DNA of 46,108 bases from Celeribacter ethanolicus (GTDB taxonomy: Bacteria; Pseudomonadota; Alphaproteobacteria; Rhodobacterales; Rhodobacteraceae). The notes beneath the pieces were generated by a model that saw only the letters and a program-made list of their open reading frames with translations, was not told the origin of the DNA and did no database searches. Each line of letters begins with the position of its first letter. Position 1 is the first letter of the stretch. Location: NCBI RefSeq assembly GCF_001550095.1, contig NZ_LRUC01000024.1:1-46108 (forward strand), given 5' to 3'. The position numbers and the translations under genes are program-made. Positions 1,401-24,161 of the stretch are shown here, piece after piece.

Positions 1401-1432
1401 GCCGCGTAATCTCCGCACCCCGCCCAACAGGG

Positions 1433-2982: not shown

Positions 2983-3005
2983 GATGCGGCTCCTTTTACT
3001 GCAAA

Positions 3006-3065
3006 GCGTAAATCAAAACGAATTACGCCTCAACGTAAATTTTCAATATTTACGCTAAAGCGTAA
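3006..3065 (-). promoter_or_regulatory. Probable hipBA operator cluster
   Basis: Five copies of a GCGTAA/TTACGC-type half-site lie upstream of hipB: GCGTAA at 3006-3011, TTACGC at 3023-3028, ACGTAAAT at 3033-3040, ATTTACGC at 3048-3055 and GCGTAA at 3060-3065. The last two form the palindrome TTACGC-TAAA-GCGTAA. Multiple spaced inverted sites are what HipB-type dimers use for autorepression. Confidence 0.65.
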
Positions 3066-3114
3066 CTGCCCGATTAGATGACCGGCGAAAGCTATCCCGT
3101 CGCTCAACGCCCGC

Positions 3115-3405: not shown

Positions 3406-3595
3406 AGCTGCTTCGCCTTCGGCCCGCGCCTCGGCAATCTCCTGGGCGTTCTCGGTGCGGATGTGGGCGGCCTCGGTTTGTGCTTCATGGACTATGCGGC
3501 TGGCATCCGCCTCCGCGTCCCCGTTGCGGCATTGACATGCTTCCTCCCCGCCTTCAGTCTCGGCGCCAACTCCTCTCGTTGCCCGGAAAAGCTTT

Positions 3596-7945: not shown

Positions 7946-7946
7946 G

Positions 7947-9029: not shown

Positions 9030-10609
9030 TTTGCGGCCCCGCTCATCAAGGCCCCGATGGTGTGGCGGGCGCCGTCTTCATTCTCGACGATGCCCGCGAT
9101 CCGGCCCTGATCCATCACGGCGATGCGGTGGCTCAGCGCCAGCAACTCGTCGAGTTCGGTGGAAATCAGGATCACCGCCGCCCCGCTTTTGGCCGCCTCA
9201 CGGATGCGCATCTGGGTCGCGGCGATATTGGCGAGATCGAGCCCGTAGGTCGGTTTCTCGAAAATCACCACCCGGGAGCTGCCCGCCAGCTCGCGTGCCA
9301 AAAGCACCTTCTGGATATTGCCGCCCGACAGCTTGCCCACCGGCGTGTCGATGGAAGGCGTGCGGATGTCGAAGTCCGTCACCTTCCGGCGGGCGTTTTC
9401 GCGGATCGCCTCGGGCTGCTCAAGACCGCCGCGCCAATAGGGGGCCTGTCCGATTTCCTTGAGCAAGAGATTGATCGACATGGGAAACGTGCCCACGGTT
9501 CCCTCGCCCAAGCGGTCGTCGGTCACGTAACGCACCCCCTTTTCCCGGCGCTGACCGATGGTCATCCTGTCGATGTAAGCCCCGTCCAGAACGATGCGCC
9601 CGTCCGACACCGGCGCCTGCCCGGAAATGGTTTCCGCCAGTTGTTTCTGGCCATTGCCGTCGATCCCGGCGATGCCGAGAATTTCCCCCGGCCAGACCTT
9701 GAATTCGATATTCTGAAGCGGTACGCGCCCGGCTTCGGCATAAACGGCCAGAAGTTCGAGCGTCGGTTTCGCGGCGCGGTCGACGGTCGTGCTGTCGGGA
9801 TGCGCCTCTTCCGCGCCCGAGGCGTCGCGCGTGCCGAACATCAGCCGCACCACCTCATTGGTGGCCTCCTGAGGATCGAGCGTTTTGAGCGCGTCAGGCG
9901 CGAGCCCGCCGACCTTCTTGCCGAGGCGCAGCACAGAGATCCGGTCGCCGTAAGCCACCGCCTCGTTGAGTTTATGGGTGATGAACACCACCGCCATACC
10001 CTCCGCTGCCAGACGCCGCATCAGCTCGCCCAAACGGGCGGCATCGTTGGGCGTCAGCATCGCGGTGGCTTCGTCGAGAATGAGGAAACGAGCCCCCCGC
10101 ATCAGGGCGCGGGTGATCTCCGCCTGCTGGCGTTCGCCAAGGGACAGATCGCCGGTCACGGCCATGGGATCGAGGTTCACGCCAATGCGTTCGGCGGCGG
10201 CCTTCATCGCCTCCGCTGTGCCCGCGCGATCCGGCTTCTGCCACCATTTTCGCCCAAGCGTGGCATTTTCCACCAAGGTCAGGCTGGGCACCAGCATGGA
10301 GTGTTGAAACACCGTCGAAATCCCGATTTCCAGCGCCTCCGACGGCGAACCGATGGGCCGTTCGACACCGTCGATCAGGATGCGCCCGCCGTCGGGCTGT
10401 TGCAGGCCTGAGAGCATGGAGACGAGGGTCGATTTGCCCGCGCCGTTCTCGCCCAGAAGCACATGCACCTCGCCCGCGCGGAATTCCATGTCGATGCTGT
10501 CATTGGCGATGATGCCCGGATAGCGTTTGGTCACCCCTTCAAAGGCGACAATCGGCGGGGCCTCCGTGCCGGAAGGGCGGGCGGTTGCGCGGGTCTGTGC
10601 GTCTAACAT
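9026..10609 (-). CDS. BMP-type ABC importer, double ATPase subunit
   Basis: This 527-residue protein has two ABC domains in tandem, as in NupO/YufO and sugar importers of the same fold. The first has Walker A GENGAGKST, signature LSLGERQQ and Walker B FLILDEAT. The second has a degenerate Walker A (GIDGNGQKQ), signature LSGGNIQK and a changed Walker B with EKPTYGLD. Such asymmetry is normal for this family, where one site is weakly active. It couples ATP hydrolysis to transport by the two permeases encoded downstream. Confidence 0.92.
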   Translation of the reverse strand: MLDAQTRATARPSGTEAPPIVAFEGVTKRYPGIIANDSIDMEFRAGEVHVLLGENGAGKSTLVSMLSGLQQPDGGRILIDGVERPIGSPSEALEIGISTVFQHSMLVPSLTLVENATLGRKWWQKPDRAGTAEAMKAAAERIGVNLDPMAVTGDLSLGERQQAEITRALMRGARFLILDEATAMLTPNDAARLGELMRRLAAEGMAVVFITHKLNEAVAYGDRISVLRLGKKVGGLAPDALKTLDPQEATNEVVRLMFGTRDASGAEEAHPDSTTVDRAAKPTLELLAVYAEAGRVPLQNIEFKVWPGEILGIAGIDGNGQKQLAETISGQAPVSDGRIVLDGAYIDRMTIGQRREKGVRYVTDDRLGEGTVGTFPMSINLLLKEIGQAPYWRGGLEQPEAIRENARRKVTDFDIRTPSIDTPVGKLSGGNIQKVLLARELAGSSRVVIFEKPTYGLDLANIAATQMRIREAAKSGAAVILISTELDELLALSHRIAVMDQGRIAGIVENEDGARHTIGALMSGAAK

Positions 10610-10687
10610 ATCGGTCTCCAGAGTTCTGGACGGACCCTCGACGGGCCCGCCCGATCATTTCCAAGCGTCGGTTTAAACGCTTACAGG

Positions 10688-11725
10688 TCACTCTCCGGTG
10701 ACGAGCGCATGCACCGATTCCGCATCGAAATGCGGCTCGACCACCAGCGCGCCGGACACGATCTCGTCCTTGACCGCCATCACCTCGGCCCAGACATCCT
10801 CGGGGATATAAGGCGATTTCAGCAGCGCCACGGAGCCATCGGCCAGATTGATGCCGTAGTTCCGGGTGCCGAACGTATCGGCACGGATGTCTTCGATCAT
10901 TGCCTCATAAACCGGTGTCAGGTTCCAGAGCACGGAAGACAAGAGGTAGCCCTTGTCGATCGGGGTCTTGTCGCCAATCACGTCGATGAACATGACCTTG
11001 CCACCATCGGCGGCGGGCGTGGTTTCCACAGCCTGCAACATGCCAAAGGACGAACCGTTGCCCTGACCGAAGATGATGTCCGCCCCTGCAGCAATCAGGG
11101 ATTCGGTCACGCGCTTGCCGCCCGCAGCGTCGGAGTAAGCAGCCGGGCCAATTACCGCATAACGGATCACCAGCTCCGGGTTGGTCGCCTTGACGCCCTC
11201 GGCGAAAGCGGCGGATTGCGAGTTCCATGACGGCGGCTCACCGGAGGTGACGATGCCAACGGTGCCGGACCGGGTCATCTTCGCGGCAAGCACGCCAGCG
11301 AGATAGGCGCCTTCGTGGCCGGAGGCGGTGTAATCGACCACCGCACCTTCGCTCAGCGCGCTCGGGCTGTCGACGATGGCGACTTTGACACCGGTTTCGG
11401 CACCGATCTCGGGGGCGGCCGTGTTGTAACCGCTGGCATGGGCGATAATCAGGCCCGGCTCTTCTTCCGCCAGTTCGCGCAGGGTCGGACGCACATCGCC
11501 ATAGCCGAGGTTCTCGGCCACGATCACCTCGACGCCCATCGCCTCTCCGGCGGCTTTCGCGCCGTCGATGCCTTGCTGGTTCCAGCCGTAATCCGTCCCG
11601 GTTTCCGGCGTCAGAATGGCCATGGAAGTGATTTCTTCGGCCAGCACGGCGGTGCTCATGCCCGCCGTGAAAGCGAGCGCGGTCATCAGCCGCAATGCCC
11701 CTTTCGTCGTCTTTGTCATCGTCAT
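10688..11725 (-). CDS. BMP-family substrate-binding lipoprotein-like protein
   Basis: This 345-residue periplasmic binding protein of the BMP/PnrA family has a signal peptide (TAGMSTAVLAEE cleavage region at about residues 20-32) and the family landmarks GTDYGWNQQGIDGAK and GHEGAYLAGVLAA. No lipobox cysteine is evident, so it is probably soluble in the periplasm. I chose the ATG at 11725 because GGAG lies six bases upstream; the frame is open further upstream but lacks a ribosome site. It heads the transporter operon. PnrA-like proteins bind nucleosides, but related ones bind other ligands. Confidence 0.88.
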   Translation of the reverse strand: MTMTKTTKGALRLMTALAFTAGMSTAVLAEEITSMAILTPETGTDYGWNQQGIDGAKAAGEAMGVEVIVAENLGYGDVRPTLRELAEEEPGLIIAHASGYNTAAPEIGAETGVKVAIVDSPSALSEGAVVDYTASGHEGAYLAGVLAAKMTRSGTVGIVTSGEPPSWNSQSAAFAEGVKATNPELVIRYAVIGPAAYSDAAGGKRVTESLIAAGADIIFGQGNGSSFGMLQAVETTPAADGGKVMFIDVIGDKTPIDKGYLLSSVLWNLTPVYEAMIEDIRADTFGTRNYGINLADGSVALLKSPYIPEDVWAEVMAVKDEIVSGALVVEPHFDAESVHALVTGE

Positions 11726-12316: not shown

Positions 12317-12914
12317 TCTGGCCCATCACTTGGCACGGCCCCGTCCGCCTCCCCCAAACGGGGAGGTGACCGGCCCCAAGCGTTTCTACGGTCCACCAGC
12401 CTCTGGTTCACCATCGACATCCCTGCCATTCGCGTTCCTGAAAAATCCGGACACCGAGCCATTGGCCAAGCCACCGGAATGTGCGTGGGCTGGCTGTTCT
12501 GCCTGTCGCCTCTCTGCGGAGCGATCACGCGCCGGGACAACCCGACCAAAACAACCAATCTCGACTCAACCATAACGCCGATCAAACAGCCGTCAACAAA
12601 TCTCAACCGTTTTATTGGTTGTTTTCTCAACCAAACCAAACCAAGCCACCCAAAAGCACAAATTTCAGACGAACGGTGCAAAATTCGCTGTATTTAGGGT
12701 ATTTTTTCGGCATCTTGCGAAAAAATACTGCTTATCCCTGCTGATATTCTACGCAACCCACTCCAAAATTTTTAAAAATATGACTCAACCATTCTTTTTT
12801 GGTTGCGCATAGTTGGTTGCGCGATCTAGCGTAACTCATCAGTCGGCGGTCCGAAACATCTCGACTCGGATGACAACGCCAGCAGCCCCACCAACAGGGA
12901 CTTCAGGAGAAGCA
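12317..12914. other. Long control region of the B6/pyridine operon
   Basis: No gene is visible in this stretch. The first 200 bases are GC-rich and featureless to me. From about 12540 it becomes clearly AT-richer, with A/T runs at 12690-12790, and carries seven copies of a CAACCA/TTGGTTG motif listed separately. This is the promoter region for the monooxygenase operon that begins at 12915. Confidence 0.6.
12552..12820 (+). promoter_or_regulatory. Repeated CAACCA/TTGGTTG operator sites
   Basis: Sites seen: CAACCAA 12552-12558, CAACCA 12567-12572, CAACCG 12604-12609 facing TTGGTTG 12615-12621, CAACCAA 12628-12634, CAACCA 12786-12791 facing TTGGTTGC 12799-12806, and TTGGTTGC 12813-12820. The last two are tandem TTGGTTGCGC copies 14 bases apart. 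The same motif is clustered upstream of the FadR-type regulator gene at 21749, so that regulator is the probable binder. Confidence 0.65.
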
Positions 12915-14408
12915 ATGACAGTGCAAGATACATCCACCACGGCGAGCAAACCCGCGCACCGGCTCAAGACCGGCGCCGAGTTCAAAGCCTCGCTCGATGA
13001 CGGTCGCAACATCTGGATCGGCAAGCGCAAGCTCGACAAGGTCACCGACGAACCCGCGCTCGGCGCCGGTGTCGACCTTCTGGCCGAGATGTTCGACGAT
13101 CAGTTCAAACCGGAATTCGAGGATGCGACCACCTATCTCGACCCCAAATCCGGCGAGATCGTCAGCCGCGCCTGGCAGGTGCCGACCACCATCGAAGAGC
13201 TGGCCGACCGCCGCAAGATGATCGAATACACCAGCCTCAAAACCGCTGGTACCTTTGGCCGCCCGCCGGACCTTTCGCCCGCAATCGTCGCGGGTCTCAT
13301 GGCCTATCAGGATGTTTTCAAACAGAAAAAATCCATGATCGACGGCTGCAACCCGGATTTCGCGGAAAATATCGAAGCCTATATGGACTTTGGTCGCAAC
13401 ACCAACCTCACCGCCTCCGAGAGCCTCGCCGGTCCGCAGACCGACCGCTCGAACCCGAAGGCGGCGGAGATGGCCTTCCTGCGTGTGACCAAGGCGCAAG
13501 CCGACGGCATCTATGTCTCCGGCGCGAAAACCGTTGGCTCGATCGCGGCGCAGGCCAATGACATTTTCTTCACCAACCTCGGCGGTCTGACCACCACCCC
13601 GCCGGAGGCCTGTGTCTGGGGCGCCGTTCCGATCAATGCCGATGGCATCACCATGATCTCGCGCGAGATGGTGTCGCAACCCGGTGCCAACAAGTTCGAC
13701 CATCCGGTCTCCTCCATGGGCGAAGAGGCCGACCAGTTCATCGTCTTCGACAATGTCTTCGTGCCGAAAGAGCGCATCTTCAACCTCGGCGATCCGGACG
13801 GCATGTCCTGGTATGGCCGCGCCACGGTGTTCGCACACTGGCATGTGCTGACCCGCATGGCGGTGAAATCCGAGCTTTTCGTCGGCGCCGGTCAGATGGT
13901 GCTCGACGTGCTCGGCACCGGCAATATCCCCGCCGTACAGCAGATGCTGGGCGAGCTGATCCAATATGCCCAGACGCTCCGCGCTTTCGTGATCGCCGCT
14001 GAAGCCAAAGCGACGCAGCTCGCCTCCGGCGTTGTCACCCCCGATGTGTCGATGCTGACCGCCGGTCGCCTCTACTCGATCGAACATTACCCGCGGATCA
14101 TTCATATCCTTCAGGAAATGTGCGGTCAGGGTCTCGTCATGCGCTTCGGCAAAGACGCGTTTGAGAACCCCGAAATCGGTCATTACCTCAATGACTTGCT
14201 GCCGGGTCACGGCGTCTCCGCCATGCAGAAAGAACTGTTGATGAACTTCATCTGGGACATGACCAGCGGGTCGCTTGCGGGTCGCGTGGCGCTCTTCGAG
14301 AACGTCAACTCCTCGCCCGCCCCGCGTCTGCGTGCCCGCCTCTTCGACGAAGTGAGCCGCGAGGCCTTCGTCGATCAGGTGAAAACCATCGCCGGCATGG
14401 ACTGGTAA
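12915..14408 (+). CDS. HpaB-type two-component flavin monooxygenase
   Basis: This 497-residue protein belongs to the 4-hydroxyphenylacetate 3-monooxygenase (HpaB) family, the oxygenase half of FADH2-dependent hydroxylases. Family features include the helical N-domain, the central beta domain with FVPKERIF at about residues 282-289, and a C-terminal helical bundle ending near the C-terminus. The ATG at 12915 has AGGAG five bases upstream. The family hydroxylates phenolic rings next to or para to a hydroxyl. Because a NicX-like dioxygenase and B6-oxidising enzymes share the locus, I infer a 3-hydroxypyridine substrate hydroxylated to a 2,5-dihydroxypyridine pattern. The flavin reductase encoded at 18732 should supply reduced flavin. 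Confidence 0.85.
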   Translation: MTVQDTSTTASKPAHRLKTGAEFKASLDDGRNIWIGKRKLDKVTDEPALGAGVDLLAEMFDDQFKPEFEDATTYLDPKSGEIVSRAWQVPTTIEELADRRKMIEYTSLKTAGTFGRPPDLSPAIVAGLMAYQDVFKQKKSMIDGCNPDFAENIEAYMDFGRNTNLTASESLAGPQTDRSNPKAAEMAFLRVTKAQADGIYVSGAKTVGSIAAQANDIFFTNLGGLTTTPPEACVWGAVPINADGITMISREMVSQPGANKFDHPVSSMGEEADQFIVFDNVFVPKERIFNLGDPDGMSWYGRATVFAHWHVLTRMAVKSELFVGAGQMVLDVLGTGNIPAVQQMLGELIQYAQTLRAFVIAAEAKATQLASGVVTPDVSMLTAGRLYSIEHYPRIIHILQEMCGQGLVMRFGKDAFENPEIGHYLNDLLPGHGVSAMQKELLMNFIWDMTSGSLAGRVALFENVNSSPAPRLRARLFDEVSREAFVDQVKTIAGMDW

Positions 14409-14471
14409 CCCCGTCCCCTACGGGCGCGCCTGCCCTCTTCCGGGCGCGCCCTCCTTCACAAGAGCAGACTG

Positions 14472-14873
14472 ATGACCGATTGCCCCCTCATCGACGCGTT
14501 TTACGCCGCCTATAACCGCCACGACGCCGAGGCCGCCACCCGGCTTTATGCGACAGAGGGGCGCCATGACGAAATCGCCATGGGCAAGAGCCGCACGGGG
14601 CATGAGGCCCTGCGCGACGGGCTGACCGGGTTCTTCAACATGCTCCCGGATGTGACATGGACCCCGCACCAGACCGTGCGCTCGGCGGATCACATCGCGG
14701 TATTCTACCATATGACCGGCACGTTCACGCCGCGCCCCAGCGACAAGGCCCCGGACCCCGCCCCGAAACCGGTGGCGCTCGACGGGATGCATCTTTTCCA
14801 GCGCGCGGGCGATGAGATCGTGCGGACACAGGACTATTGGGACAAGGACGCGTTCCTGGCCCAGATCGGATAA
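14472..14873 (+). CDS. SnoaL-like NTF2-fold protein
   Basis: This 133-residue protein has the SnoaL/NTF2-like pattern: an N-terminal helix (IDAFYAAYNRHDAEAATRLY), the GHEALRDGLTGFF helix and beta strands ending in a DGMHLFQRAGDEIVR-type motif. Members of this fold are isomerases, hydrolases, decarboxylases or non-catalytic binding proteins. It lies three bases before the first amidase gene, so it may handle an unstable ring-opened or hydroxylated intermediate. The exact role cannot be read from sequence. The short gap to the monooxygenase gene contains two GGGCGCGCC copies. Confidence 0.75.
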   Translation: MTDCPLIDAFYAAYNRHDAEAATRLYATEGRHDEIAMGKSRTGHEALRDGLTGFFNMLPDVTWTPHQTVRSADHIAVFYHMTGTFTPRPSDKAPDPAPKPVALDGMHLFQRAGDEIVRTQDYWDKDAFLAQIG

Positions 14874-14876
14874 GAC

Positions 14877-16316
14877 ATGCGAGACGAGTACGACAGGCTG
14901 GACGCCACCGCGATCGCCGGATTGGTGCAAAGTGGCGAGGTCAGCGCCAAGGAGGTGTTCGACGCCGCCATGACCCGGATCGAGGCGCTTGAGCCACATC
15001 TCAACACCATCGTGCATCCGCATTTCGATCTGGCCGAAGCGGATATCGACGCGGGCCTGCCCGACGGTCCGTTCAAGGGCGTACCCTTCCTGATCAAGAA
15101 CACCGGCATCGCCGTGCGTGGCATGGAAATGTCCACCGGGTGTCGGCTGTTCAAAGGCCATGTGGATCAGACCGATTGCACCCTCGTGGCGCGCTACCGC
15201 GCGGCGGGGCTGGTGATCCTTGGCAAATCCAACACGCCGGAATTCGCGCTGAGTTTCGCCACCGAACCGCGCGACTATGGGGTCACACGCAACCCGTGGA
15301 ACCTCGATCACGGCCCCGGCGGCTCCTCGGGCGGCTCGGCGGCGGCGGTGGCCGCAGGGCTTGTGCCCTTTGCCAACAGTTCGGACGGTGCGGGGTCGAC
15401 CCGCCTGCCCGCCGCGCACACCGGACTGTTCGGGTTCAAGCCCAGCCGGATGCGCAACCCGCTTGGCCCCGTCGCCGTTGAGGGCATCGCGGGCATGTCC
15501 ACGCCCCATGCGCTGACCAAATCCGTGCGCGACAGCGCGGCGCTTCTGGACATTTCCGGCGGTGCGGACATCGGCGATCCCTATGCGCAGCCGGTGAAAA
15601 CCGAGAGCTATCTCATCTCCGTCGGGCGTGATCCGAAACCGCTCAAAATCGGTCTGACCCTCGCTTCGCCTCTGGGCACGCCGGTCGATCCGGAGATCCT
15701 TGCCCGCACCGAAGAGGCCGCCAAGCTGATGGAAAGCCTCGGCCATCATGTCGAGATCGTCGAAAGCGCGGGCTATGACGCCGAGGCGCTCAAGACCGCG
15801 TGGCAGGTCATTCCCGGCGTCAACGTCGCCACCGCCGTTCTGGCCCGCGGCAAGGCTTTGGGGATCAAAGATCCGATTGCCGAGTTGGAACCCGCCAACG
15901 CGGAATGGATCCGCAAGGCTCTGACCCTCACCGGCATGGATTACCTCGCCTCCGTCAACCAGCTTCACGCCACCGCGCGCGGGCTTGGCCGCTTCTTCGA
16001 GCGTTTCGACATTCTGATGAGCCCGACCAGCGCCGAATTGCCGCCGAAACTCGGAACGATGTCGAGCCAGACCCAGAGCCTTGACGCCTTCTACGATCAA
16101 TTCTGGGCGCACAGCCCTTTTACCTGCGCTTTCAACGCCTCGGGTTTCCCGGCGATGAGCCTGCCCTTTGGCCTCTCGACATCCGGCCTGCCGATCGGCG
16201 TCCATTTCGGCGCGGCTCTGGGCGGGGAGAACCTTCTGTTCTCGCTCGCCGGTCAGGTTGAACGCGCCGCCCCCTGGGCCGATCTGCGCCCCGATCTTTC
16301 GGAGTTTCTGTCATGA
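14877..16316 (+). CDS. Amidase-signature family hydrolase 1
   Basis: This 479-residue enzyme has the Ser-cisSer-Lys triad of the amidase signature family: Lys74 in FLIKN, Ser150 in the GGSSGGS motif and the nucleophile Ser174 in DGAGSTRLPA. The usual D-GGS-R-PA motif is slightly altered (DGAGS). These cytoplasmic enzymes hydrolyse C-N amide bonds. It overlaps the next amidase gene by four bases. In this locus one amidase could remove an N-acyl group from the ring-cleavage product and the other could release ammonia; which does which is not visible. Confidence 0.88.
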   Translation: MRDEYDRLDATAIAGLVQSGEVSAKEVFDAAMTRIEALEPHLNTIVHPHFDLAEADIDAGLPDGPFKGVPFLIKNTGIAVRGMEMSTGCRLFKGHVDQTDCTLVARYRAAGLVILGKSNTPEFALSFATEPRDYGVTRNPWNLDHGPGGSSGGSAAAVAAGLVPFANSSDGAGSTRLPAAHTGLFGFKPSRMRNPLGPVAVEGIAGMSTPHALTKSVRDSAALLDISGGADIGDPYAQPVKTESYLISVGRDPKPLKIGLTLASPLGTPVDPEILARTEEAAKLMESLGHHVEIVESAGYDAEALKTAWQVIPGVNVATAVLARGKALGIKDPIAELEPANAEWIRKALTLTGMDYLASVNQLHATARGLGRFFERFDILMSPTSAELPPKLGTMSSQTQSLDAFYDQFWAHSPFTCAFNASGFPAMSLPFGLSTSGLPIGVHFGAALGGENLLFSLAGQVERAAPWADLRPDLSEFLS

Positions 16317-17617
16317 GCGATCTCATTCAATACGATGCGACGGATCTGATCGCGAAAGTCTCCTCCGGTGCGGTGAGCCACCGTGAAGTGGCTGAGGCCT
16401 ATCTCGAACGGATCGCCGAAAAAGACGGCGAAATCGGCGCCTATATCCATTGCGACCCGGAGCTGGTGCGCCGCACCGCCGATGCCCGCGACAAGGCGGG
16501 CGCAGGGCCGCTTGCCGGTCTGCCCGTGGGGGTCAAGGATGTGATCGACACGGTCGACATGCCGACGGGCTATGGCTCTGCCGCCTATGAGGGGTGTCAG
16601 CCCTATTGGGACGCGCCCTGTGTGACGCAATCCAAAGCCGCCGGTGCGCTGATCATGGGCAAGACGGTTTCGACCGAATTCGCCATGGCCAGCTCCGGCA
16701 AGACCCGCAACCCGTGGAACCTTGCCCATACGCCGGGAGGCTCCTCCTCGGGGTCCTGTGCCGCCGTCGCCGCGGGCATGGCGCTGATGGCCTTCGGTAC
16801 CCAGACCGCAGGCTCGATCATCCGCCCGGCCTCCTATTGCGGCGTGGTCGGTTACAAGCCCTCTTTCGGGCTTCTGGAGCCCGCCGAGATCAAGGTTCTG
16901 GCCCATTCGCTCGACACGCTGGGGCTTGTGACCCGCACTGTGCGCGACGCGGCCCTCACCGCCTCCGTTCTGGCGGGCGGTCCGGGTCTGGCACTGTCGG
17001 GCGATCTGCCCAGCGCGCCCAAGGTGGGCCTGTTCCGCACCCCGCCCTTCGATCCTGCCGAGCCTGCGACCGTGGCCGCGCTCGATCTGGCCGTGGCCCG
17101 GATCGAAGCCGCCGGTGGCACGGTGGTCGAAATCGACGTGCCGGACACTTTCATCACCACACATGATCTGCATGCCGCCGTGATGGGCTGGGAAGTCAGC
17201 CGCGCCCTGTCCCATGAGCGCGCCGCGCTATGGGACCAACTCACGCCCGTGACCCGCGATTTTCTGACCGAAAAGGCACGGATCGATGCCCCCGCCTATG
17301 ATGCCGCCCGCGCCGCTTTGCCCAAGGTAGCCGCCGATCTGGCAGAGGCCATGGCCGATGTCGATGTGCTTCTGGCCCCTGCGGCCCCCGGCACCGCCCC
17401 CGAGGGCTTTGCCAGCACCGGCGCACCGATGTTCAACACCCCCTGGACGCTTCTTCACATGCCCGCGCTGAACGTGCCCGCCCTCATGCACGACGGCCTT
17501 CCCGTCGGCGTTCAGGTCATCGGGCGGGTCGGCGAAGATGCGAAAACCCTCGCCATGGCCGCCTTTATCGAAACCTGTCTCGACACGCCCTTCGATGCCC
17601 TGCGAGGCCATCCATGA
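16313..17617 (+). CDS. Amidase-signature family hydrolase 2
   Basis: This is a 434-residue second amidase-signature enzyme, clearly diverged from the first and not a recent tandem copy. The triad is Lys75 in GVKD, Ser144 in GGSSSGS and Ser168 in QTAGSIIRPA, the canonical nucleophile motif. It overlaps both neighbours by four bases (ATGA type), which indicates strict co-translation. A pair of unlike amidases behind a NicX-like dioxygenase would replace the unrelated NicD and NicF enzymes used in nicotinate degradation. Confidence 0.88.
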   Translation: MSDLIQYDATDLIAKVSSGAVSHREVAEAYLERIAEKDGEIGAYIHCDPELVRRTADARDKAGAGPLAGLPVGVKDVIDTVDMPTGYGSAAYEGCQPYWDAPCVTQSKAAGALIMGKTVSTEFAMASSGKTRNPWNLAHTPGGSSSGSCAAVAAGMALMAFGTQTAGSIIRPASYCGVVGYKPSFGLLEPAEIKVLAHSLDTLGLVTRTVRDAALTASVLAGGPGLALSGDLPSAPKVGLFRTPPFDPAEPATVAALDLAVARIEAAGGTVVEIDVPDTFITTHDLHAAVMGWEVSRALSHERAALWDQLTPVTRDFLTEKARIDAPAYDAARAALPKVAADLAEAMADVDVLLAPAAPGTAPEGFASTGAPMFNTPWTLLHMPALNVPALMHDGLPVGVQVIGRVGEDAKTLAMAAFIETCLDTPFDALRGHP

Positions 17618-18735
17618 GGGGACAGAACCCGCTTGAACGCCTGAGCAGTCGCGATGTGCGCCAGAGCCTGCAATGGTCCGCCCTGCTCGCGGCGGCCATC
17701 GGGCTGGCCTCGCTCCTCGGGCTGATCCATTTCCCCGCCGCCCCGCTTCTGGGCGCGATGATCGCGGGCATCGCCTTTGGCGCCAGCGGCAGCCACCTGC
17801 GCGTGCCCCGCCCCGCCTATGTGCTGGCGCAGGGCGCGGCGGGCGTGTTCATCGCCACCTCCATGTCCCCCGCCATTCTCGTCGATGTGGCACAGGACTG
17901 GCCGCTGCTTCTGGCGATGACCGGGGCGACGCTTGTCGTCGCCTTCACCATCGGCTGGCTGATGAACCGTGTCACCGGGATTTCCGAGGATGTCGCGGTT
18001 TACGGCAGCCTGCCGGGCATGTCCGGCGCCATGGTGATCATCGCCAATGAGCGCGGCGCCGATGCCCGCATCGTGGCGCTGATGCAATATGTGCGCCTCG
18101 CGTCGGTGATCCTGTCCGTCGCGCTCTTTGCCTCGCTGCTGCCCGACAGCCCCGAGGCCAGCCTGCCGGCCCGGGACATCTCGCCGCTCTCGCCGATCCT
18201 CGCCCCTGCCCTCGCGGCAATCTCGCTCATTGCCGTCAAGCTCAAGCGCCTGCCCGCCGCCGGCATGCTGATCCCTCTGATTCTCTGTGCCGTGATCGAG
18301 GCCACCGGCCTCTTGCACCTGCAAATGCCGCATGTCCTGATCCTCGCCACCTTCGGAGTGATCGGGCTCGAGGTCGGGCTCAAATTCACCCGCGAGGTGC
18401 TCGGCCATGTGATCCGGCTGATCCCTGCCGTTCTGATTTCTACCATCGCCCTCATCGCGATCAGCGCCGGGTTGGGCCTGATCCTCTATGCCCTCACCGA
18501 TCTCGACGTGAAAACCGCGCTACTGGCCTCCGCTCCCGGCAGCATCGAAACCGTCGCCCTCGTCGCCATCGCGACCAAGGCCAATGTCGCCGCCGTCATC
18601 GCCTTTCAGACCGTGCGGATGTTCACCGTGGTCCTGTTCGGCCCGTTTCTCGTGGACCTGCTGATGCGCCTGCCGATCTGGTCCCCCTCCCTGCGCATAG
18701 ATGCCGCCAAACCCGCTTCACGGAGTGAAACATGA
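17614..18735 (+). CDS. AbrB-type polytopic membrane protein, possible transporter
   Basis: This 373-residue protein has about ten membrane helices in two similar halves, as in the AbrB membrane family often labelled ammonia monooxygenase or transcriptional regulator. Each half has a glycine-rich helix break, such as YGSLPGMSGAMVIIANERGAD in the first and SAPGSIETVALVAIATKAN in the second. There is no DNA-binding domain, so the regulator label is misleading. It is translationally coupled with amidase 2 and the flavin reductase, so a transport role for the pathway substrate, an intermediate or ammonium is a fair guess. Confidence 0.8.
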   Translation: MRGQNPLERLSSRDVRQSLQWSALLAAAIGLASLLGLIHFPAAPLLGAMIAGIAFGASGSHLRVPRPAYVLAQGAAGVFIATSMSPAILVDVAQDWPLLLAMTGATLVVAFTIGWLMNRVTGISEDVAVYGSLPGMSGAMVIIANERGADARIVALMQYVRLASVILSVALFASLLPDSPEASLPARDISPLSPILAPALAAISLIAVKLKRLPAAGMLIPLILCAVIEATGLLHLQMPHVLILATFGVIGLEVGLKFTREVLGHVIRLIPAVLISTIALIAISAGLGLILYALTDLDVKTALLASAPGSIETVALVAIATKANVAAVIAFQTVRMFTVVLFGPFLVDLLMRLPIWSPSLRIDAAKPASRSET

Positions 18736-19250
18736 TCATGCCGATGATTTTTCCCCAAGCCGATGCCGTCGAAGGCCTCAAGGCCGCCATGCGGTTCTAC
18801 CCCGCGGGCGTCACCGTTATCACCGCCGGTCGTGGCGACGCCCGGCGCGGGCTGACCGCCACGGCCTTTACCTCCGTCACGATGGAGCCGCCAACCGTGC
18901 TCGTCTGTGTCAATCGCAACGGTGCCGCGCATCGGGCGATCACCGAGAACCGGCATTTCTGCGTCAACATCCTGTGCGAGCAAAGCCGCGATCTCGCCGA
19001 GAGCTTTGCCGGTATGACCGGCAAGACCGGCGCCGATCAGTTCGAGGGCTTCGAATGGGTCGAAACCTGTGTCGGTGCCCCCGCCTATGCCTTTGCCCAG
19101 GCTTCCGTCGCCTGCGACCTCACCCAGGCCGTCGAGGCCGGATCTCACAGCATCTTCATCGGGGAGGTGCGCGAAGCCGCGCTCAACCCCGACCGTCACC
19201 CGCTTTTGCATTACAACCGCGGCTTTCACGCCGTCGGTGCAGCCAGATAA
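18732..19250 (+). CDS. HpaC-type NAD(P)H:flavin reductase
   Basis: This 172-residue flavin reductase of the HpaC/ActVB type has the conserved GLTATAFTSVTMEPPTVLVC flavin-binding segment and a GEV-EA strand before the HPLLHYNRGFH C-terminal motif. The family reduces free FMN or FAD with NAD(P)H and passes it to the partner oxygenase; the HpaB-type protein encoded at 12915 is the natural partner although five genes lie between them. It overlaps the membrane protein gene by four bases. Confidence 0.9.
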   Translation: MIMPMIFPQADAVEGLKAAMRFYPAGVTVITAGRGDARRGLTATAFTSVTMEPPTVLVCVNRNGAAHRAITENRHFCVNILCEQSRDLAESFAGMTGKTGADQFEGFEWVETCVGAPAYAFAQASVACDLTQAVEAGSHSIFIGEVREAALNPDRHPLLHYNRGFHAVGAAR

Positions 19251-19262
19251 ACAGGAGCTCCC

Positions 19263-20300
19263 ATGGCGATCAGCAACGCAGATTTCGTCCTCGCGTGGAA
19301 AAACGTGTTGGAACAATGCCAACTCAAACCCGGCGAACAGGTCGCGATCCTGACCTCCGACGACAGCAATATGCAGATCGTCGAATGCGCGCGCACGGCG
19401 GCGGGGCTTTTGGGCGGGATCATCACCATGATCAACCTGCCGATGATCAATGGCGACAAGGCGCTGTCGCGCGACAAATCGGGCTATGTCGGCCAGACCA
19501 CGCAGCTTGGCGTCAACACCTCGGCGCTTGCCGCACTGAAGGCCGCCGATCTGGTGATCGACACGCTTCAGCTGCTTTTTTCCCACGAACAGGAAGAGAT
19601 CCTGAAAACCGGCACACGCATGCTTCTGGCCGTCGAACCGCCGGAAACAATGCTGCGGATGATCCCCTCGCCGGAGGCCAAAAACAAAGTCATCGCCGCC
19701 AATAAATACATGGACCCCGCCAGGGAAATGACCGTCACCTCGAAAGCCGGGACGGATTTCCGCTGCAAGCTCGGCCAGTACCCGGTGCTCCTGCAATACG
19801 GCCTCGCCGATGAGCCGGGGCGCTGGGATCACTGGCCGAGCTGCATGATTGCGCGCTGGCCCGATGAGGGCTCCGCCGAAGGGATCATCGTGATCGACGA
19901 GGGCGATATTTTGCTGCCCTTCAAACGCTACGCCGCTGACAAGATCTATCTCACCATCGAGAAAGGCTTTGTCACCAAGATCGAAGGCGGCTGGACCGCC
20001 GAATACATGAAGACCTTCATGGACAGTTTCAACGACCCGGACGCCTATGCCATGGCGCATGTCGGCTGGGGGCTTGAGAACCGCGCGAACTGGACCACGC
20101 TCGGGCTTTACGATCGCGAGGCGGCGCTGTCGATGGATGCGCGCTGTTTCGCCGGGAACTTCCTGTTCTCCACCGGACCGAACACCGAAGCGGGCGGCAC
20201 CCGCGACACACCCTGTCACCTCGACATCCCGCTGCGCGGCTGTTCTCTGTCGCTCGATGGCGTGCCGATGACCCGGGACGGTGTGGTCGTCCACGACTGA
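19263..20300 (+). CDS. NicX-like 2,5-dihydroxypyridine 5,6-dioxygenase
   Basis: This 345-residue protein closely follows NicX of Pseudomonas along its length, with the segments ILKTGTR-LLAVEPPE, GQYPVLLQYG-ADEPGRWDHWPS and GNFLFSTGPNTE. The iron ligands of NicX (His265, His318, Asp320) correspond to His266 in AHVGWGL and to His319 and Asp321 in PCHLDIPL. NicX cleaves the C5-C6 bond of 2,5-dihydroxypyridine with O2 to give N-formylmaleamate. Here the locus suggests a substituted dihydroxypyridine from vitamin B6. An AGGAG precedes the ATG, and a terminator follows. Automatic pipelines often call such proteins leucyl aminopeptidase, which the metal ligands do not support. Confidence 0.88.
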   Translation: MAISNADFVLAWKNVLEQCQLKPGEQVAILTSDDSNMQIVECARTAAGLLGGIITMINLPMINGDKALSRDKSGYVGQTTQLGVNTSALAALKAADLVIDTLQLLFSHEQEEILKTGTRMLLAVEPPETMLRMIPSPEAKNKVIAANKYMDPAREMTVTSKAGTDFRCKLGQYPVLLQYGLADEPGRWDHWPSCMIARWPDEGSAEGIIVIDEGDILLPFKRYAADKIYLTIEKGFVTKIEGGWTAEYMKTFMDSFNDPDAYAMAHVGWGLENRANWTTLGLYDREAALSMDARCFAGNFLFSTGPNTEAGGTRDTPCHLDIPLRGCSLSLDGVPMTRDGVVVHD

Positions 20301-20320
20301 TCCCGCCTCGTTCACGCACG

Positions 20321-20351
20321 AAAAAGGCGGTCGATCTGGCCGCCTTTTTTT
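20321..20351. terminator. Bidirectional intrinsic terminator
   Basis: AAAAAGGCGG (20321-20330) pairs with CCGCC-TTTTT (20340-20349), followed by more T on the plus strand and preceded by A on the same strand. It can end the rightward dioxygenase operon and the leftward aminotransferase transcript. Confidence 0.88.
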
Positions 20352-20364
20352 GGTGATCAAGCTT

Positions 20365-21549
20365 TTATCCGCGCATCACCGCCTCTGCCGCCGCCACCGC
20401 GGCCCCGATGTCGAGCGGCTTGCCAAGCAGCTCACCCATCGCGCCACCCAGCGCGGTCAGCGCCAGAACGGTATAGAGCGGGAAAGCCGTCGGCCCCATA
20501 TGCCCCACCCGCACCAGCTTGTTGAAGGTCTCCGCCCGGCCCGAGGAAATCACCACGCCGTAGCGCACCTTCATCAGATTGCGCAGCTCGGTCTCGTCCA
20601 CCCCATCGGGCAATTTGATCGTGGTGCAGGTCGGCGAAGCGATCTCTTCGCGCGCGGCCCAAAGTTCAAGCCCCATGGCCTTCACCCCTGCCCGCATGGC
20701 TTCGGCGGTCTTGGCGTGGCGCGCCCAGACATTGGCCGGGCCTTCCGACAAATAGCGGTCGATCCCGGCTTCGAGCCCGTAAATCTCCGACACCGACGGC
20801 GTAAACGGAAATCCTTCCGTCGCCCTCCACGCGTCCTTCCAATCGAGAATCGACAGGATCGAGGCGCGCGGCGCCGCCGGATTGGCCGCCATCTTGGCCC
20901 AGGCCCTCTCCGACACCGTCAGGATCGACAGCGCAGGCGGGCAGCCAAGGCATTTGTTCGGCCCCGTCACCAGAAGGTCGATGCAGCAGGCCTCGACATC
21001 CACCTCGACCCCGGCCCAGGCCGACACACTGTCCACCACGTAAAGCGCGCCGTGTTTGCGCACCACCTCGCCGATCTCCCTGATCGGGTTGATCGTGCCG
21101 GAGGGCGTGTCGTGATGACAGACCGCAACCAAACCAACCTCTGGATGGTTGGTCAGGAATTCATCGACCGCAACCGGATCGACCACATCGTTATAGGCCA
21201 CGCGAATCTCGTGGAATACCCCGGCCCTCGGTTTGAGCCATTCACCGTACCCCGCGCCGTAAACCCCGGAGGCGAGGTTGAGAACCGTGTCCTCCGGCGC
21301 GACAAGGGAATAGGCCGCAGCCTCCAGCCCCAGAACTGGCTCGCCCTGCAGGACAATCGGCACATCTGAGGTCCCGAGCGCCACCGCCAGCTTTTTCATA
21401 ACCTTCTCGTAATAGGCCATAAATGACGGATCATAATCATAAAAAACCGGTTTCCCGAGGGCTGAAAGCACCTCGGGATAACAGTTCACCGGTCCTGTCG
21501 TCAGGGTGAAGAGCGCGGGGGCATTCACCGCGGCCGTCTTGTCGTTCAT
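20365..21549 (-). CDS. Pyridoxamine-pyruvate aminotransferase
   Basis: This 394-residue fold-type I class V aminotransferase reads like PPAT of Mesorhizobium loti nearly throughout: TGPVN-YPEVL at the N-terminus, GEPVLGLEAAA, LNLASGVYG, CHHDTPSGTINPI, TGPNKCLG with the catalytic Lys at about residue 199, and PFTPSVSEI. PPAT converts pyridoxamine and pyruvate to pyridoxal and alanine without bound PLP as cofactor and belongs to B6 catabolism. Serine-glyoxylate aminotransferases are relatives, but the match to PPAT is closer. I chose the ATG at 21549 because the family similarity starts there; AGGA lies nine bases upstream. Confidence 0.9.
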   Translation of the reverse strand: MNDKTAAVNAPALFTLTTGPVNCYPEVLSALGKPVFYDYDPSFMAYYEKVMKKLAVALGTSDVPIVLQGEPVLGLEAAAYSLVAPEDTVLNLASGVYGAGYGEWLKPRAGVFHEIRVAYNDVVDPVAVDEFLTNHPEVGLVAVCHHDTPSGTINPIREIGEVVRKHGALYVVDSVSAWAGVEVDVEACCIDLLVTGPNKCLGCPPALSILTVSERAWAKMAANPAAPRASILSILDWKDAWRATEGFPFTPSVSEIYGLEAGIDRYLSEGPANVWARHAKTAEAMRAGVKAMGLELWAAREEIASPTCTTIKLPDGVDETELRNLMKVRYGVVISSGRAETFNKLVRVGHMGPTAFPLYTVLALTALGGAMGELLGKPLDIGAAVAAAEAVMRG

Positions 21550-21612
21550 TGTGCTAAGTCCTGTGTTCTTGCGCCGGGGGCAGCCACGGATCGCCGGGCA
21601 GCGCCCCTCACT

Positions 21613-21681
21613 GCAACCATGCAACCACAGGGCGGCAACCGCTTGCAACCAAACTTTGACCATTTTCGATTTTTTGGTTGC
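21613..21681. promoter_or_regulatory. GCAACC/TTGGTTGC operator cluster between aminotransferase and regulator
   Basis: Direct copies GCAACCA at 21613-21619 and 21621-21627, GCAACC at 21635-21640 and GCAACCAA at 21645-21652 face an inverted TTGGTTGC at 21674-21681. The AT-rich segment between the last two could hold promoters for either direction. It matches the motif set upstream of the monooxygenase operon. Confidence 0.7.
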
Positions 21682-21748
21682 ATTGCGCATGGGTTTCGCA
21701 CAAATTCAGGCAAACAGATGTCAGAGTGAGCAGGAGGGCGCGCGGAGA

Positions 21749-22480
21749 ATGAGCGGGGATATGTCATCGGCACAGGGGACAAAACGCGACGCGGCCCCTC
21801 GGACAGACAAGTCGGCCATGGTCGACGACCTGCTGGAGCATCTGCGCGGCCTGCTCAAGACCTCTGATGAATTGCCGCCCGAACGCGTTCTGGCCGACAC
21901 GCTTCAGGTCTCCCGCCACAGCCTGCGCAAGGCACTCAAGGTGCTGCGCGACAATGGCGAGCTGACCTCCGCCAAAAGCGGGCGCCGGGCGCATTCCGAC
22001 ACCAATCCCACGCCGCCCAGCAGCGCGCGGCTGGTGCAATCCACCAACCCTCTCGAAGTCATGGAAATGCGCCTGATGATCGAGCCCGCGCTGGCCCGTT
22101 TGGCCGCGCTCCGTGCCTCGCCGGACGAGATCGCCCAGATCCTGCGCACCGCGCATTCCCCCGCCGATCTGAGCCCCGCGCAGGCCGATCAGGATTTCCA
22201 CCGTGCCGTCGCCGCAGGCTCGCGCAACAGCCTCGCCTCCGAGCTTCACATCCTGTTGCACCGGGTTCAAAACGACGCCCGCCTGCGCTTCACCGATGCG
22301 GACAGCGACGAAAACACCACGGTCGAACGGGTGAAAGCCCGCGACCTTGAACACCAGAAGATCGCCGAAGCCATTGCCTCGCGCGATCCGACCACCGCCG
22401 AACGGGCGATGTTCGACCATCTCGAACGCACCCAACGCAAACTCATGGGACTTGGATTGAGACCGGGCGATGCCGCATGA
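21749..22480 (+). CDS. FadR-subfamily GntR regulator
   Basis: This 243-residue regulator has an N-terminal winged helix (LPPERVLADTLQVSRHSLRKAL at about residues 40-62) and a C-terminal all-helical FCD effector domain (EVMEMRLMIEPALARLAA, then D-DFHRAVAAGS and a late ERAMFDHLERT helix). FCD proteins bind small acids or metals and usually repress catabolic genes. It is divergent from the aminotransferase gene and overlaps the oxidase gene. The start at 21749 has AGGAGG 11 bases upstream; an in-frame ATG at 21761 is possible. I infer that it controls both B6 blocks through the GCAACCA sites, with a pathway intermediate as inducer. Confidence 0.88.
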   Translation: MSGDMSSAQGTKRDAAPRTDKSAMVDDLLEHLRGLLKTSDELPPERVLADTLQVSRHSLRKALKVLRDNGELTSAKSGRRAHSDTNPTPPSSARLVQSTNPLEVMEMRLMIEPALARLAALRASPDEIAQILRTAHSPADLSPAQADQDFHRAVAAGSRNSLASELHILLHRVQNDARLRFTDADSDENTTVERVKARDLEHQKIAEAIASRDPTTAERAMFDHLERTQRKLMGLGLRPGDAA

Positions 22481-24026
22481 CTCTGACGCTTTGAGGAGCG
22501 ACATCCTCATTCTGGGCGGCGGCTCCGCCGGCTGCATCCTCGCCAACCGCCTGAGTGCCGACCCGAGTGTCAAGGTCACACTCCTCGAAGCCGGCGGATG
22601 GGCAAAAGACCCCGACATTGCGAAACCCGACATGTGGCCCTTTATCCAGGGCCGCGAGTTCGACTGGGATTTCGAAACCACACCGCAGGCGGGCACCGCA
22701 GGCCGCGTACATCGCTGGGCCCGGGGCCGTGTGCTGGGCGGGTCGAGCAACCTGCACGCCATGTTCCATGTCCGCGGCCATCGCGCGGACTTTGCCCGCT
22801 GGGCCGAACTGTCCGGCGATGCGCGCTGGAGCTATGACGGGCTTTTGCCGCATTTCAAGGCGACCGAGACCTGGAACATCCCCGAAGACGCCCTGCACTC
22901 CAGTGACGGCCCGATGCCGATCATGTTGCCCGACGAGACCCAGAGCCATCCTTTGGTGAAGGACTATATCAAAGGCTGGGTGGCGCTTGGCATGCCGCGT
23001 CTGCGCGACCATTGCGGCGAAGAACTGATCGGCACCGCGCCCAACGCCCTGATGATCCGCGACGGCAAACGCGTGACCACGGCGGATGCCTGGCTGACGC
23101 CCGATGTTCTGGCGCGTCCGAACCTCACCATCGTCGAACAGGCCCCCGTGCGGCGTCTGATCCTCGACGGCACGCGCGCGGTCGCCGCCGAAGTGCATCA
23201 CGGCACGGAGCTTCTGCGCTATGAGGCCGATGAGATCATCCTCTCCCTCGGCGCCATCGGGAGCCCGACGACCCTGATGCGCTCTGGCATTGGAGATCCG
23301 GAGCGGCTGGCCGAGGCCGGTGTCGACTGCCTGATCGCACGGCGCGAGATCGGCAAGAACCTGCACGATCACTTGCTCGCTGCGGGCAATATCTACCGCG
23401 CCGCCAGGGACATCATCCCGTCCAAGCTGCAAATCTCGGAATCGCTCAGCTATCAGGCCGAGGATCCGACCCGGACCGAAGGCCGCCCCGACATCGTCGT
23501 CGGCTGTGTCGTCGCCCCGAGCGCCTCGGAGATGTTCGACAACGCGCCCGAACCGGGCCATGGTTTCACCCTTCTGTTCGGCGTCACCAACCCGACCAGC
23601 CGCGGAGAATTGACCATCACCGGGCCGGAGCTTTCCGATCCCGTCACCATCGACCCGAATTACCTCGCAACAGAACGCGACCGGCATCTGTTCCGCGTGG
23701 CGCTCGACCGTGCCCGCAAGATCGGTCAAAGCGCCGAGCTTGCTCCCTGGATCGCCGAAGAAGTTCAGCCCACGCCCGGAGACCTGACCGACGAAGCCGC
23801 GATGGATGCTTTCATCGCCATGGCCGCGATCACCCATCACCACCCCGTGGCCACCTGCCGGATGGGGTCTGACGGTGCGGCCATTGTCGATTCCAATCTG
23901 AAAATGCGCGGCCTCGACAACCTCTGGATCGTCGATGCCTCGATCATCCCGGAAATCACCGCCGGCCCGATCCACGCCGCCGTGATGGCCATCGCGGAAA
24001 GCTTCGCCTCGGCGCGTCTCGGCTGA
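22470..24026 (+). CDS. Pyridoxine 4-oxidase, GMC flavoprotein
   Basis: This 518-residue GMC oxidoreductase follows Mesorhizobium pyridoxine 4-oxidase over its whole length, including GGGSAGCILANRLS (FAD site), the WDFETTPQAGTAGR loop, HRWARGRVLGGSS and the C-terminal THHHPVATCRMG with catalytic-site histidines at residues 456-458. Like PNO it has AGPIHAAV at the end, with Pro where many GMC enzymes have His or Asn. PNO oxidises pyridoxine to pyridoxal with O2, forming H2O2. The gene overlaps the regulator by 11 bases. Choline dehydrogenase is the usual generic label but fits less well. Confidence 0.9.
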   Translation: MPHDSDALRSDILILGGGSAGCILANRLSADPSVKVTLLEAGGWAKDPDIAKPDMWPFIQGREFDWDFETTPQAGTAGRVHRWARGRVLGGSSNLHAMFHVRGHRADFARWAELSGDARWSYDGLLPHFKATETWNIPEDALHSSDGPMPIMLPDETQSHPLVKDYIKGWVALGMPRLRDHCGEELIGTAPNALMIRDGKRVTTADAWLTPDVLARPNLTIVEQAPVRRLILDGTRAVAAEVHHGTELLRYEADEIILSLGAIGSPTTLMRSGIGDPERLAEAGVDCLIARREIGKNLHDHLLAAGNIYRAARDIIPSKLQISESLSYQAEDPTRTEGRPDIVVGCVVAPSASEMFDNAPEPGHGFTLLFGVTNPTSRGELTITGPELSDPVTIDPNYLATERDRHLFRVALDRARKIGQSAELAPWIAEEVQPTPGDLTDEAAMDAFIAMAAITHHHPVATCRMGSDGAAIVDSNLKMRGLDNLWIVDASIIPEITAGPIHAAVMAIAESFASARLG

Positions 24027-24084: not shown

Positions 24085-24161
24085 TGGCGATCCCTTGAGG
24101 ACTCGAACCCCAAACCTGCTGATTAGAAGTCAGCTGCTCTATCCAGTTGAGCTAAGGGACC
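24085..24161 (-). tRNA. tRNA-Arg (anticodon TCT)
   Basis: Read on the minus strand the gene runs from GGTCCCT (24161-24155) to AGGGATC, discriminator G and an encoded CCA (24087-24085). The D-arm TAGCTCAACTGGATAGAGCA, the anticodon stem-loop CTGACTTCTAATCAG with TCT, and the T-arm GGGGTTCGAGTCCTC are all intact. It decodes AGA. Its 3' end faces the B6 locus. Confidence 0.95.

Follow-up and report, generated by a model that had tools for sequence, protein, structure and literature searches.

Gene organization of the locus

The window analyzed here comprises the 46,108 nucleotides of contig NZ_LRUC01000024.1 of Celeribacter ethanolicus, which is the whole contig C17 of genome G000 (G, L and C numbers are our own handles). 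It carries a group of genes that we read as a vitamin B6 catabolic locus with an unusual, NicX-type ring-opening module. A preliminary description, made from this DNA alone, had arrived at the same reading, and all the genes that it named were found at the positions it gave. The genes from HpaB to NicX form a tight plus-strand operon in the order HpaB, SnoaL-like protein, amidase 1, amidase 2, AbrB-type membrane protein, HpaC-like flavin reductase and NicX, in which 63 bases follow HpaB, two further gaps measure 3 and 12 bases, and neighbouring genes overlap by 4 bases in three places. The HpaB open reading frame (ORF) opens at 12813, and its likely ATG start is 12915. The minus-strand gene for pyridoxamine-pyruvate aminotransferase (PPAT) faces this operon, and a GntR/FCD regulator gene (21749-22480), divergent from PPAT, overlaps the pyridoxine 4-oxidase (PNO) gene (22470-24026). 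Four genes of a BMP-type ABC transporter (7013-11725, minus strand), missed by the preliminary description, lie to the left of the HpaB operon and are oriented divergently from it. The genes are as follows:

7013..7945, minus strand: B6-type ABC transporter permease 1 (NF047928, 494.8 bits, cut-off 465)
7947..9029, minus strand: B6-type ABC transporter permease 2 (NF047929, 493.1 bits, cut-off 400)
9026..10609, minus strand: B6-type ABC transporter ATP-binding protein (NF047930, 751.5 bits, cut-off 670)
10688..11725, start read from sequence, minus strand: B6-type ABC transporter substrate-binding protein, BMP family (NF047927, 472.2 bits, cut-off 400)
12915..14408, plus strand: HpaB-type flavin-dependent hydroxylase, oxygenase component (Pfam HpaB_N 208.5 and HpaB 144.5 bits, over cut-offs)
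14472..14873, plus strand: SnoaL/NTF2-like small protein (Pfam SnoaL_2, 68.3 bits)
14877..16316, plus strand: amidase-signature enzyme 1, proposed imide or amide hydrolase (Pfam Amidase, 278.1 bits)
16313..17617, plus strand: amidase-signature enzyme 2 (Pfam Amidase, 244.5 bits)
17614..18735, plus strand: AbrB-duplication membrane protein, possible transporter (PF05145, 264.7 bits; TIGR03082, 227 bits, cut-off 94.7)
18732..19250, plus strand: HpaC-type flavin reductase (Pfam Flavin_Reduct, 145.7 bits)
19263..20300, plus strand: NicX-type Fe(II) ring-cleaving dioxygenase (7cn3, 392.7 bits; Fe ligands kept, pocket changed, own clade)
20365..21549, likely ATG, minus strand: predicted PPAT, pyridoxamine-pyruvate aminotransferase (NF046070, 623.7 bits, cut-off 600)
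21749..22480, start read from sequence, plus strand: GntR/FCD transcription regulator, candidate reader of a shared operator (Pfam FCD 67.8 and GntR 31.6 bits)
22470..24026, plus strand: predicted PNO, pyridoxine 4-oxidase, GMC family (4ha6, 564 bits)

Identity of the encoded proteins

The predicted PPAT matched the solved M. loti PPAT (2z9u) with 509 bits, compared with 140 bits for the next solved family, and its score lies above the curated NCBIfam equivalog cut-off given above. The product of the GMC gene gave 564 bits to solved pyridoxine 4-oxidase (4ha6/3t37) and 240 bits to the next different enzyme; judged by its closest solved relative, it is probably a pyridoxine 4-oxidase, clear of other GMC enzymes. 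The HpaB protein stayed under both 4-hydroxyphenylacetate 3-hydroxylase equivalog cut-offs (226 vs 480 bits for TIGR02309 and 145 vs 885 bits for TIGR02310), and its nearest solved relatives are nitrophenol and trichlorophenol monooxygenases. The regulator, previously described as FadR-type, is a GntR protein with an FCD domain (Pfam), so that the earlier name is correct at the superfamily level. All four subunits of the adjoining transporter scored over the cut-offs of the NCBIfam models for a "putative B6 ABC transporter".

The NicX protein gave 393 bits to 7cn3 and had no other significant match among solved structures. In a quick tree, the eight NicX proteins of these loci formed one clade with full support (100 in the SH-aLRT test), placed among the NicX proteins of nicotinate clusters. 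We compared the eight clade rows with 45 others, leaving out five of the 34 non-own class-level matches (no locus); the numbering and the roles of residues were taken from PMC7910607. The Fe ligands His265, Ser302, His318 and Asp320 are kept in 8/8 clade rows and in all 53 rows, and His189, Leu104, Arg293 and Glu308 are also kept in 8/8 clade proteins. The changes that set the clade apart are T197R (8/8 clade rows, 0/45 others), G193C (8/8 and 1/45) and S264A, a change of the clade that is present in 1/45 others. At position 177, whose residue in P. putida NicX binds the substrate at N1 and O1 (PMC7910607), Gln stands in 8/8 clade rows, whereas the others have mainly Glu (30/45). With this predicted Glu177 contact changed, the protein is filed here as a NicX relative and not as a 2,5-dihydroxypyridine-specific NicX. 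A change at His105 was considered as a further mark and rejected: Phe stands there in 8/8 clade rows but also in 37/45 others. The H105F variant of P. putida NicX is described as remaining active (PMC7910607).

Four annotated nicotinate-type NicX neighbourhoods contained a FAD monooxygenase, an alpha/beta hydrolase, an Asp/Glu racemase and an isochorismatase or N-carbamoylsarcosine amidohydrolase, that is, the counterparts of NicC, NicD, NicE and NicF; a fifth such neighbourhood carried no annotation and is not in this count. No counterpart of NicC, NicD, NicE or NicF was present among the ten locus proteins scanned with Pfam.

Co-occurrence of the genes in other genomes and plasmids

As a check, the preliminary description had named a search of genomes for the joint recurrence of PNO, PPAT and the HpaB/NicX operon. 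We saw this combination in independent lineages and in a different gene order; in what follows, L001 and G356 count as one. Among 390 order-level genomes, PPAT scored over its cut-off in five and NicX exceeded 80% identity in three, all within those five. The remaining ten NicX-like matches of these genomes (L056-L065) were 42-44% identical and kept Glu177 and all Fe ligands. From GTDB contigs, six PPAT loci were fetched: three Celeribacter loci held the full set, and the other three (Pseudaminobacter and two metagenome-assembled genomes (MAGs) of Thermomicrobiales) held PPAT and the B6-type transporter without the HpaB-NicX set. In G115, which belongs to another genus, the set was present at 57-86% identity within the fetched stretch, permease 1 lying beyond the stretch end.

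Among 72,556 plasmids, PPAT was found in four, NicX at 70% identity or more in three (next match 55%), HpaB above 70% in three (next 64-65%) and PNO above 50% in three (next 38%). The plasmids with NicX, HpaB and PNO are the same three records, within the four PPAT plasmids: Rhizobium daejeonense, Rhizobium sp. ACO-34A and Ochrobactrum quorumnocens. Their gene order differs from that of the window, as PNO stands directly behind NicX (in Rhizobium after a 3-base gap) and belongs to the same gene string as HpaC, SnoaL, HpaB and the two amidases; PPAT and the transporter come next on the opposite strand. Between the two orders, HpaB and NicX are the most conserved proteins (71-72%, others 47-68%). 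The AbrB-type protein and the FCD regulator had no counterpart at 1e-15 in the three Rhizobium/Ochrobactrum stretches. The fourth PPAT plasmid, from Haematobacter massiliensis (L044), carries a PPAT homologue of 64% identity, which sits on a long branch of the PPAT tree; near it, the searches matched no NicX module and no classical genes over their cut-offs.

A class-wide draw of 385 genomes contained eight with PPAT over the cut-off and, except for the window's own, no NicX above 55% identity. Therefore, PPAT loci of the NicX form are in the minority. In two of these eight genomes, distant NicX relatives lie on other contigs (G550, 39%; G675, 42%). B6-type transporter genes stand beside PPAT also where this NicX is lacking (L003, G151, G021, G552, G725, G459, G649, G425 and the two Thermomicrobiales MAGs). 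When a single origin of the module was tested, the PPAT tree needed two changes and the transporter tree one (support 54/97).

Classical vitamin B6 enzymes

We searched five PPAT genomes for the classical enzymes, three with the NicX operon (G000, G356 and G115) and two without (G151 and G021). Pyridoxolactonase, pyridoxal 4-dehydrogenase and FHMPC dehydrogenase were over their cut-offs in 2/2 genomes without the module and in 0/3 genomes with it. In G000, the best scores were 29 bits for pyridoxolactonase and 198 bits for pyridoxal 4-dehydrogenase (cut-off 325 for each), and 151 bits for FHMPC dehydrogenase (cut-off 500).

For the ring-opening enzyme MHPCO, G000 contains 13 FAD_binding_3 matches, of which ten were scanned against NCBIfam and two of these against the PDB. 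No MHPCO was recognized among the ten scanned candidates; L129, L132 and L133 were outside the scan, and L121, L123 and L124 stayed unnamed. The most MHPCO-sized of the weakly named candidates, L127, has as its closest match a salicylate/3-hydroxybenzoate-type monooxygenase (162 bits, compared with 60 bits to MHPCO), and L131 had no solved relative in the PDB at 1e-5. When NicC was used to look for genes resembling MHPCO in 25 loci, there was no match at 1e-4, with no positive control that NicC finds MHPCO. The preliminary description had stated that the window contains none of the classical intermediate and ring-opening genes; this now extends to the whole genome for pyridoxolactonase, pyridoxal 4-dehydrogenase and FHMPC dehydrogenase, and to 10 of 13 candidates for MHPCO.

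Operator-like sites shared by the two halves of the locus

We compared the 400 bases before HpaB and the 200 bases between PPAT and the regulator gene in five loci. Of the 8-mers common to both control regions of any locus (44), four recurred in at least 4/5 loci; all four were present in 5/5 loci and belong to one motif. The window, L001, L002, L004 and L039 each contain exactly two copies of the 11-base sequence GCAACCAAAAA, one per control region and none elsewhere, also when one mismatch is allowed. Two inverted repeats of the form CAACC-N8-10-GGTTG lie between the transporter and HpaB in 5/5 loci; in the window, two were reached in 3/100 shuffles. The sites in the window are:

12604..12621: operator-like inverted repeat CAACC-N8-GGTTG, between the transporter and the HpaB operon, with a counterpart in L001, L002, L004 and L039
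12786..12806: operator-like inverted repeat CAACC-N10-GGTTG, which includes GCAACCAAAAA and lies 108 bases ahead of the HpaB ATG
21612..21682: operator-like cluster between the PPAT and regulator genes, with four TGCAACCA copies and one GCAACCAAAAA

This motif, common to both halves in five loci, bears out the earlier linking of the PNO/PPAT half with the HpaB/NicX half and suggests that the two are co-regulated in the Celeribacter and G115 loci. The FCD regulator may bind the shared operator.

Proposed route

Taking together the genes and their families, their conserved co-occurrence, the lack of the tested classical enzymes and the operator-like sites shared by five loci, we consider it likely that the locus joins a vitamin B6 catabolic front end to a non-classical ring-opening module, and that it encodes an undescribed third B6 route with C6 hydroxylation, NicX-type cleavage and two amidases. 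Vitamin B6 would be taken up by the B6-type ABC transporter. PNO would convert pyridoxine to pyridoxal, and PPAT would form pyridoxal and alanine from pyridoxamine and pyruvate, so that both would converge on pyridoxal, for which no further dedicated enzyme was recognized. HpaB-family enzymes hydroxylate phenols. Supplied with reduced flavin by HpaC, the HpaB protein would most likely hydroxylate pyridoxal at C6, para to the 3-hydroxyl group, to give a substituted 2,5-dihydroxypyridine.

Cleavage of this compound between C2 and C3 by the NicX-type Fe(II) dioxygenase would follow. According to PMC7910607, NicX cuts between the hydroxyl-bearing C5 and C6 of its usual substrate, and this cut, mapped onto 6-hydroxypyridoxal, corresponds to C3-C2 cleavage. 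Since C2 bears the methyl group, the product would be an N-acetyl, not an N-formyl, maleamate derivative. Such a product would explain why two amidase-signature enzymes replace the deformylase NicD and the amidase NicF: they would release acetate and then ammonia. We infer every enzymatic step after pyridoxal and the order of the amidases by analogy, and the roles of the SnoaL-like and AbrB proteins and the fate of the C4 unit are likewise inferred. At the level that genomes can support, sequence comparison supports the reading of the preliminary description.

Our judgement is evenly divided on a bolder version of this proposal, namely a third bacterial B6 route that acts on pyridoxal itself, with a NicX re-specialized for a fully substituted pyridine and an N-acetylmaleamate product, in which the HpaB-NicX-amidase module (occurring also with another front end, and in Thioclava next to the same transporter family, see below) is a general toolkit for 2-alkyl-3-hydroxypyridines. 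If it is true, the third route, with its different ring-opening chemistry, is directly testable, as it predicts substrates, products and mutants, and the NicX family would be extended to a substituted pyridine. According to PMC7910607, activity of this family has not been reported on substrates other than 2,5-dihydroxypyridine. The proposal also suggests functions for proteins that are annotated merely as amidase, 4-hydroxyphenylacetate hydroxylase or NTF2/SnoaL-like, and the locus offers candidates for the operator and the regulator that control B6 use.

Among the papers listed in searches of the open-licence text of PubMed Central (PMC), on B6 degradation and on B6 together with dihydroxypyridine, NicX, HpaB or 6-hydroxylated B6 compounds, we found no description of such a route; a subscription paper could exist. 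In its accessible text, a review of HpaB names pyridoxal only as a cofactor (PMC6165268).

Counter-evidence and alternative explanations

Several observations weigh against the proposed route. The main caveat is a sister module that lacks PPAT and PNO. HpaB relatives of 60-65% identity, together with amidase 1 relatives of 48-51%, are present on six plasmid records, none of them among the four PPAT-positive ones, and the three records examined (Thioclava, Terrarubrum and Neorhizobium plasmids; L134, L135 and L136) carry HpaB, two amidases, AbrB, FCD, a reductase and a NicX-like protein annotated as leucyl aminopeptidase, without PNO or PPAT. Compared with the window, identities were 60-67% by piece for HpaB, 40-52% for the amidases, 34-35% for AbrB, 35-39% for FCD and 33-36% for the reductase. 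The sister NicX-like protein is 35-43% identical, with Leu at the position of Arg293 in the two proteins aligned, and 2/3 sister modules have, as annotated, an extra isochorismatase-family gene. Since the sister module stands without PPAT and PNO, the HpaB/NicX module is not strictly tied to them. The Thioclava module additionally has SnoaL and B6-type transporter genes (3/4 subunits over cut-off), which places it close to B6 chemistry; the Terrarubrum and Neorhizobium modules have other transporters. CAACC-N-GGTTG sites lie 54 bases before the FCD gene of the Thioclava locus and between its NicX-like and reductase genes.

Further points concern the NicX mark, the transporter, the lower pathway and the operator. 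The E177Q change appeared to be unique to the clade against 16 comparators and failed as a mark in the wider set, where 13/45 others have Gln. The NCBIfam "B6 transporter" models themselves carry the label putative, and the full transporter set had no match in the PPAT stretches of G550, G675, G423 and the Haematobacter plasmid, the match in G675 being the ATP-binding protein only (33%). Of five extra Rhizobium genes, candidates for the lower pathway, the two used as queries (MmgE/PrpD and MBL-fold) had no match in G000, the MBL-fold search having no positive control. In the window alone, two GCAACCAAAAA sites were reached in 12/100 shuffles and the seven sites of YGCAACCA in 11/100; as such counts are ordinary, the weight of the motif comes from its placement and conservation, and a single genus supplies four of the five loci, which are not independent. 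Finally, neither control region of any of the three Rhizobium/Ochrobactrum loci contains the motif, which is why the suggested co-regulation is limited to the Celeribacter and G115 loci.

Turning to other explanations, the pathway might be the same one with HpaB and NicX acting on 4-pyridoxate or 4-pyridoxolactone, after oxidation of pyridoxal by an unrelated dehydrogenase. If the clade-specific Arg197 points into the pocket, it could bind an additional carboxylate group, and a module such as that of Thioclava, with B6-type transporter genes and without PNO/PPAT, would be expected if a more oxidized B6 compound is imported. In the Rhizobium loci, moreover, PPAT has two dehydrogenase-like genes and an MBL-fold gene resembling a lactonase as neighbours. 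These MBL and SDR genes were tried as the classical lactonase and dehydrogenase and scored under the cut-offs (the Rhizobium locus was tested, not the whole genome), and the known pyridoxal 4-dehydrogenase and 4-pyridoxolactonase families were under cut-off in 3/3 NicX-type genomes tested. We regard an oxidized substrate as rather unlikely.

It seems improbable that the HpaB/NicX/amidase operon merely adjoins PNO and PPAT and degrades another 3-hydroxypyridine or an unrelated heterocycle. The sister module in the three examined records and the breadth of the HpaB and amidase families would fit this explanation. It is opposed by the repeated co-occurrence in different gene orders in two orders of Alphaproteobacteria, by the position of PNO directly behind NicX in Rhizobium, by the operator-like motif common to both control regions and by the fact that no alternative ring-opening genes were recognized for the pyridoxal expected from PNO and PPAT.

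That the operon is what remains of an ordinary nicotinate (nic) cluster next to B6 genes is very improbable: the NicX protein is 52% identical to P. putida NicX and branches among nicotinate-cluster NicX, but its pocket changes are specific to the clade and the operon proteins lack the NicC, NicD, NicE and NicF counterparts that the four annotated nic-type neighbourhoods have.

Other B6 loci and flanking features

Another form of B6 locus (L041:3573-12234 with L037; L042 with L038; L079-L082; L090) combines a gentisate-dioxygenase-like cupin and a GST with FHMPC dehydrogenase, pyridoxal dehydrogenase, lactonase, PNO, PPAT and the B6-type transporter. The G459 stretch (L090), which begins at base 6000 of its contig, had no cupin match. 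No MHPCO-like gene was matched near loci of this form in a search without positive control, and they possibly represent yet another undescribed ring-opening step. The Thermomicrobiales MAGs (L005 and L006) have a B6-like locus with transporter relatives of 39-46% and PPAT of 41-42% identity, SDR, and FHMPC-dehydrogenase-like and pyridoxolactonase-like proteins under cut-off; in L005, it lies beside a molybdenum hydroxylase large subunit (1047-3509). Near the PPAT/PNO/pyridoxal-dehydrogenase locus of G550 is an ORF that looks like a Rieske oxygenase (L088:6846-8066, name read from sequence).

In the window, a tRNA-Arg (tct) gene follows directly after PNO (24085-24161, minus strand). The ORFs 1433-2737, 3596-5032 and 5455-6858 look, by eye, like a HipA-type kinase, a HAD-UbiA fusion and a flavoprotein disulfide reductase.

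Comparison with known systems

Two B6 degradation routes are described (PMC3538738, PMC6253932). With classical pathway I (Pseudomonas MA-1, Mesorhizobium loti) the locus shares the predicted PNO and PPAT entry to pyridoxal and, in related loci, the frequent company of PPAT and the same B6-type transporter. The B6 ring is cleaved at C2-C3 in pathway I, and the break of this bond with release of acetate would be expected in both routes. Unlike pathway I, the locus has HpaB/HpaC, NicX and two amidases instead of pyridoxal 4-dehydrogenase, 4-pyridoxolactonase, FHMPC dehydrogenase and MHPCO (for the last of these, within the scanned candidates given above). For B6 pathway II, the 5-pyridoxate route of Pseudomonas IA and Arthrobacter Cr-7, we know of no gene set. 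The end products of pathway I include acetate, according to PMC3538738.

With the nicotinate nic pathway (P. putida NicX, PMC7910607) the locus has in common a ring-cleaving enzyme of the same family and the proposed hydroxylation to a 2,5-dihydroxypyridine before cleavage. It differs in the two-component HpaB/HpaC hydroxylation instead of NicC, in the amidase-signature enzymes instead of NicD and NicF and in the lack of a maleate isomerase in the operon; its NicX differs from that of P. putida at residues 177, 193, 197, 251 and 264. Another route in which a pyridine is hydroxylated and then cleaved, with unrelated enzymes, is that for 4-hydroxypyridine in Arthrobacter, as described in PMC7356986. 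Like the two-component flavin hydroxylases for 4-hydroxyphenylacetate, chlorophenol and nitrophenol, the HpaB/HpaC pair has HpaB_N/HpaB and Flavin_Reduct domains over cut-off; unlike them, it falls well below the HpaB-1 equivalog cut-off (226 vs 480 bits), and its proposed substrate is a 3-hydroxypyridine.

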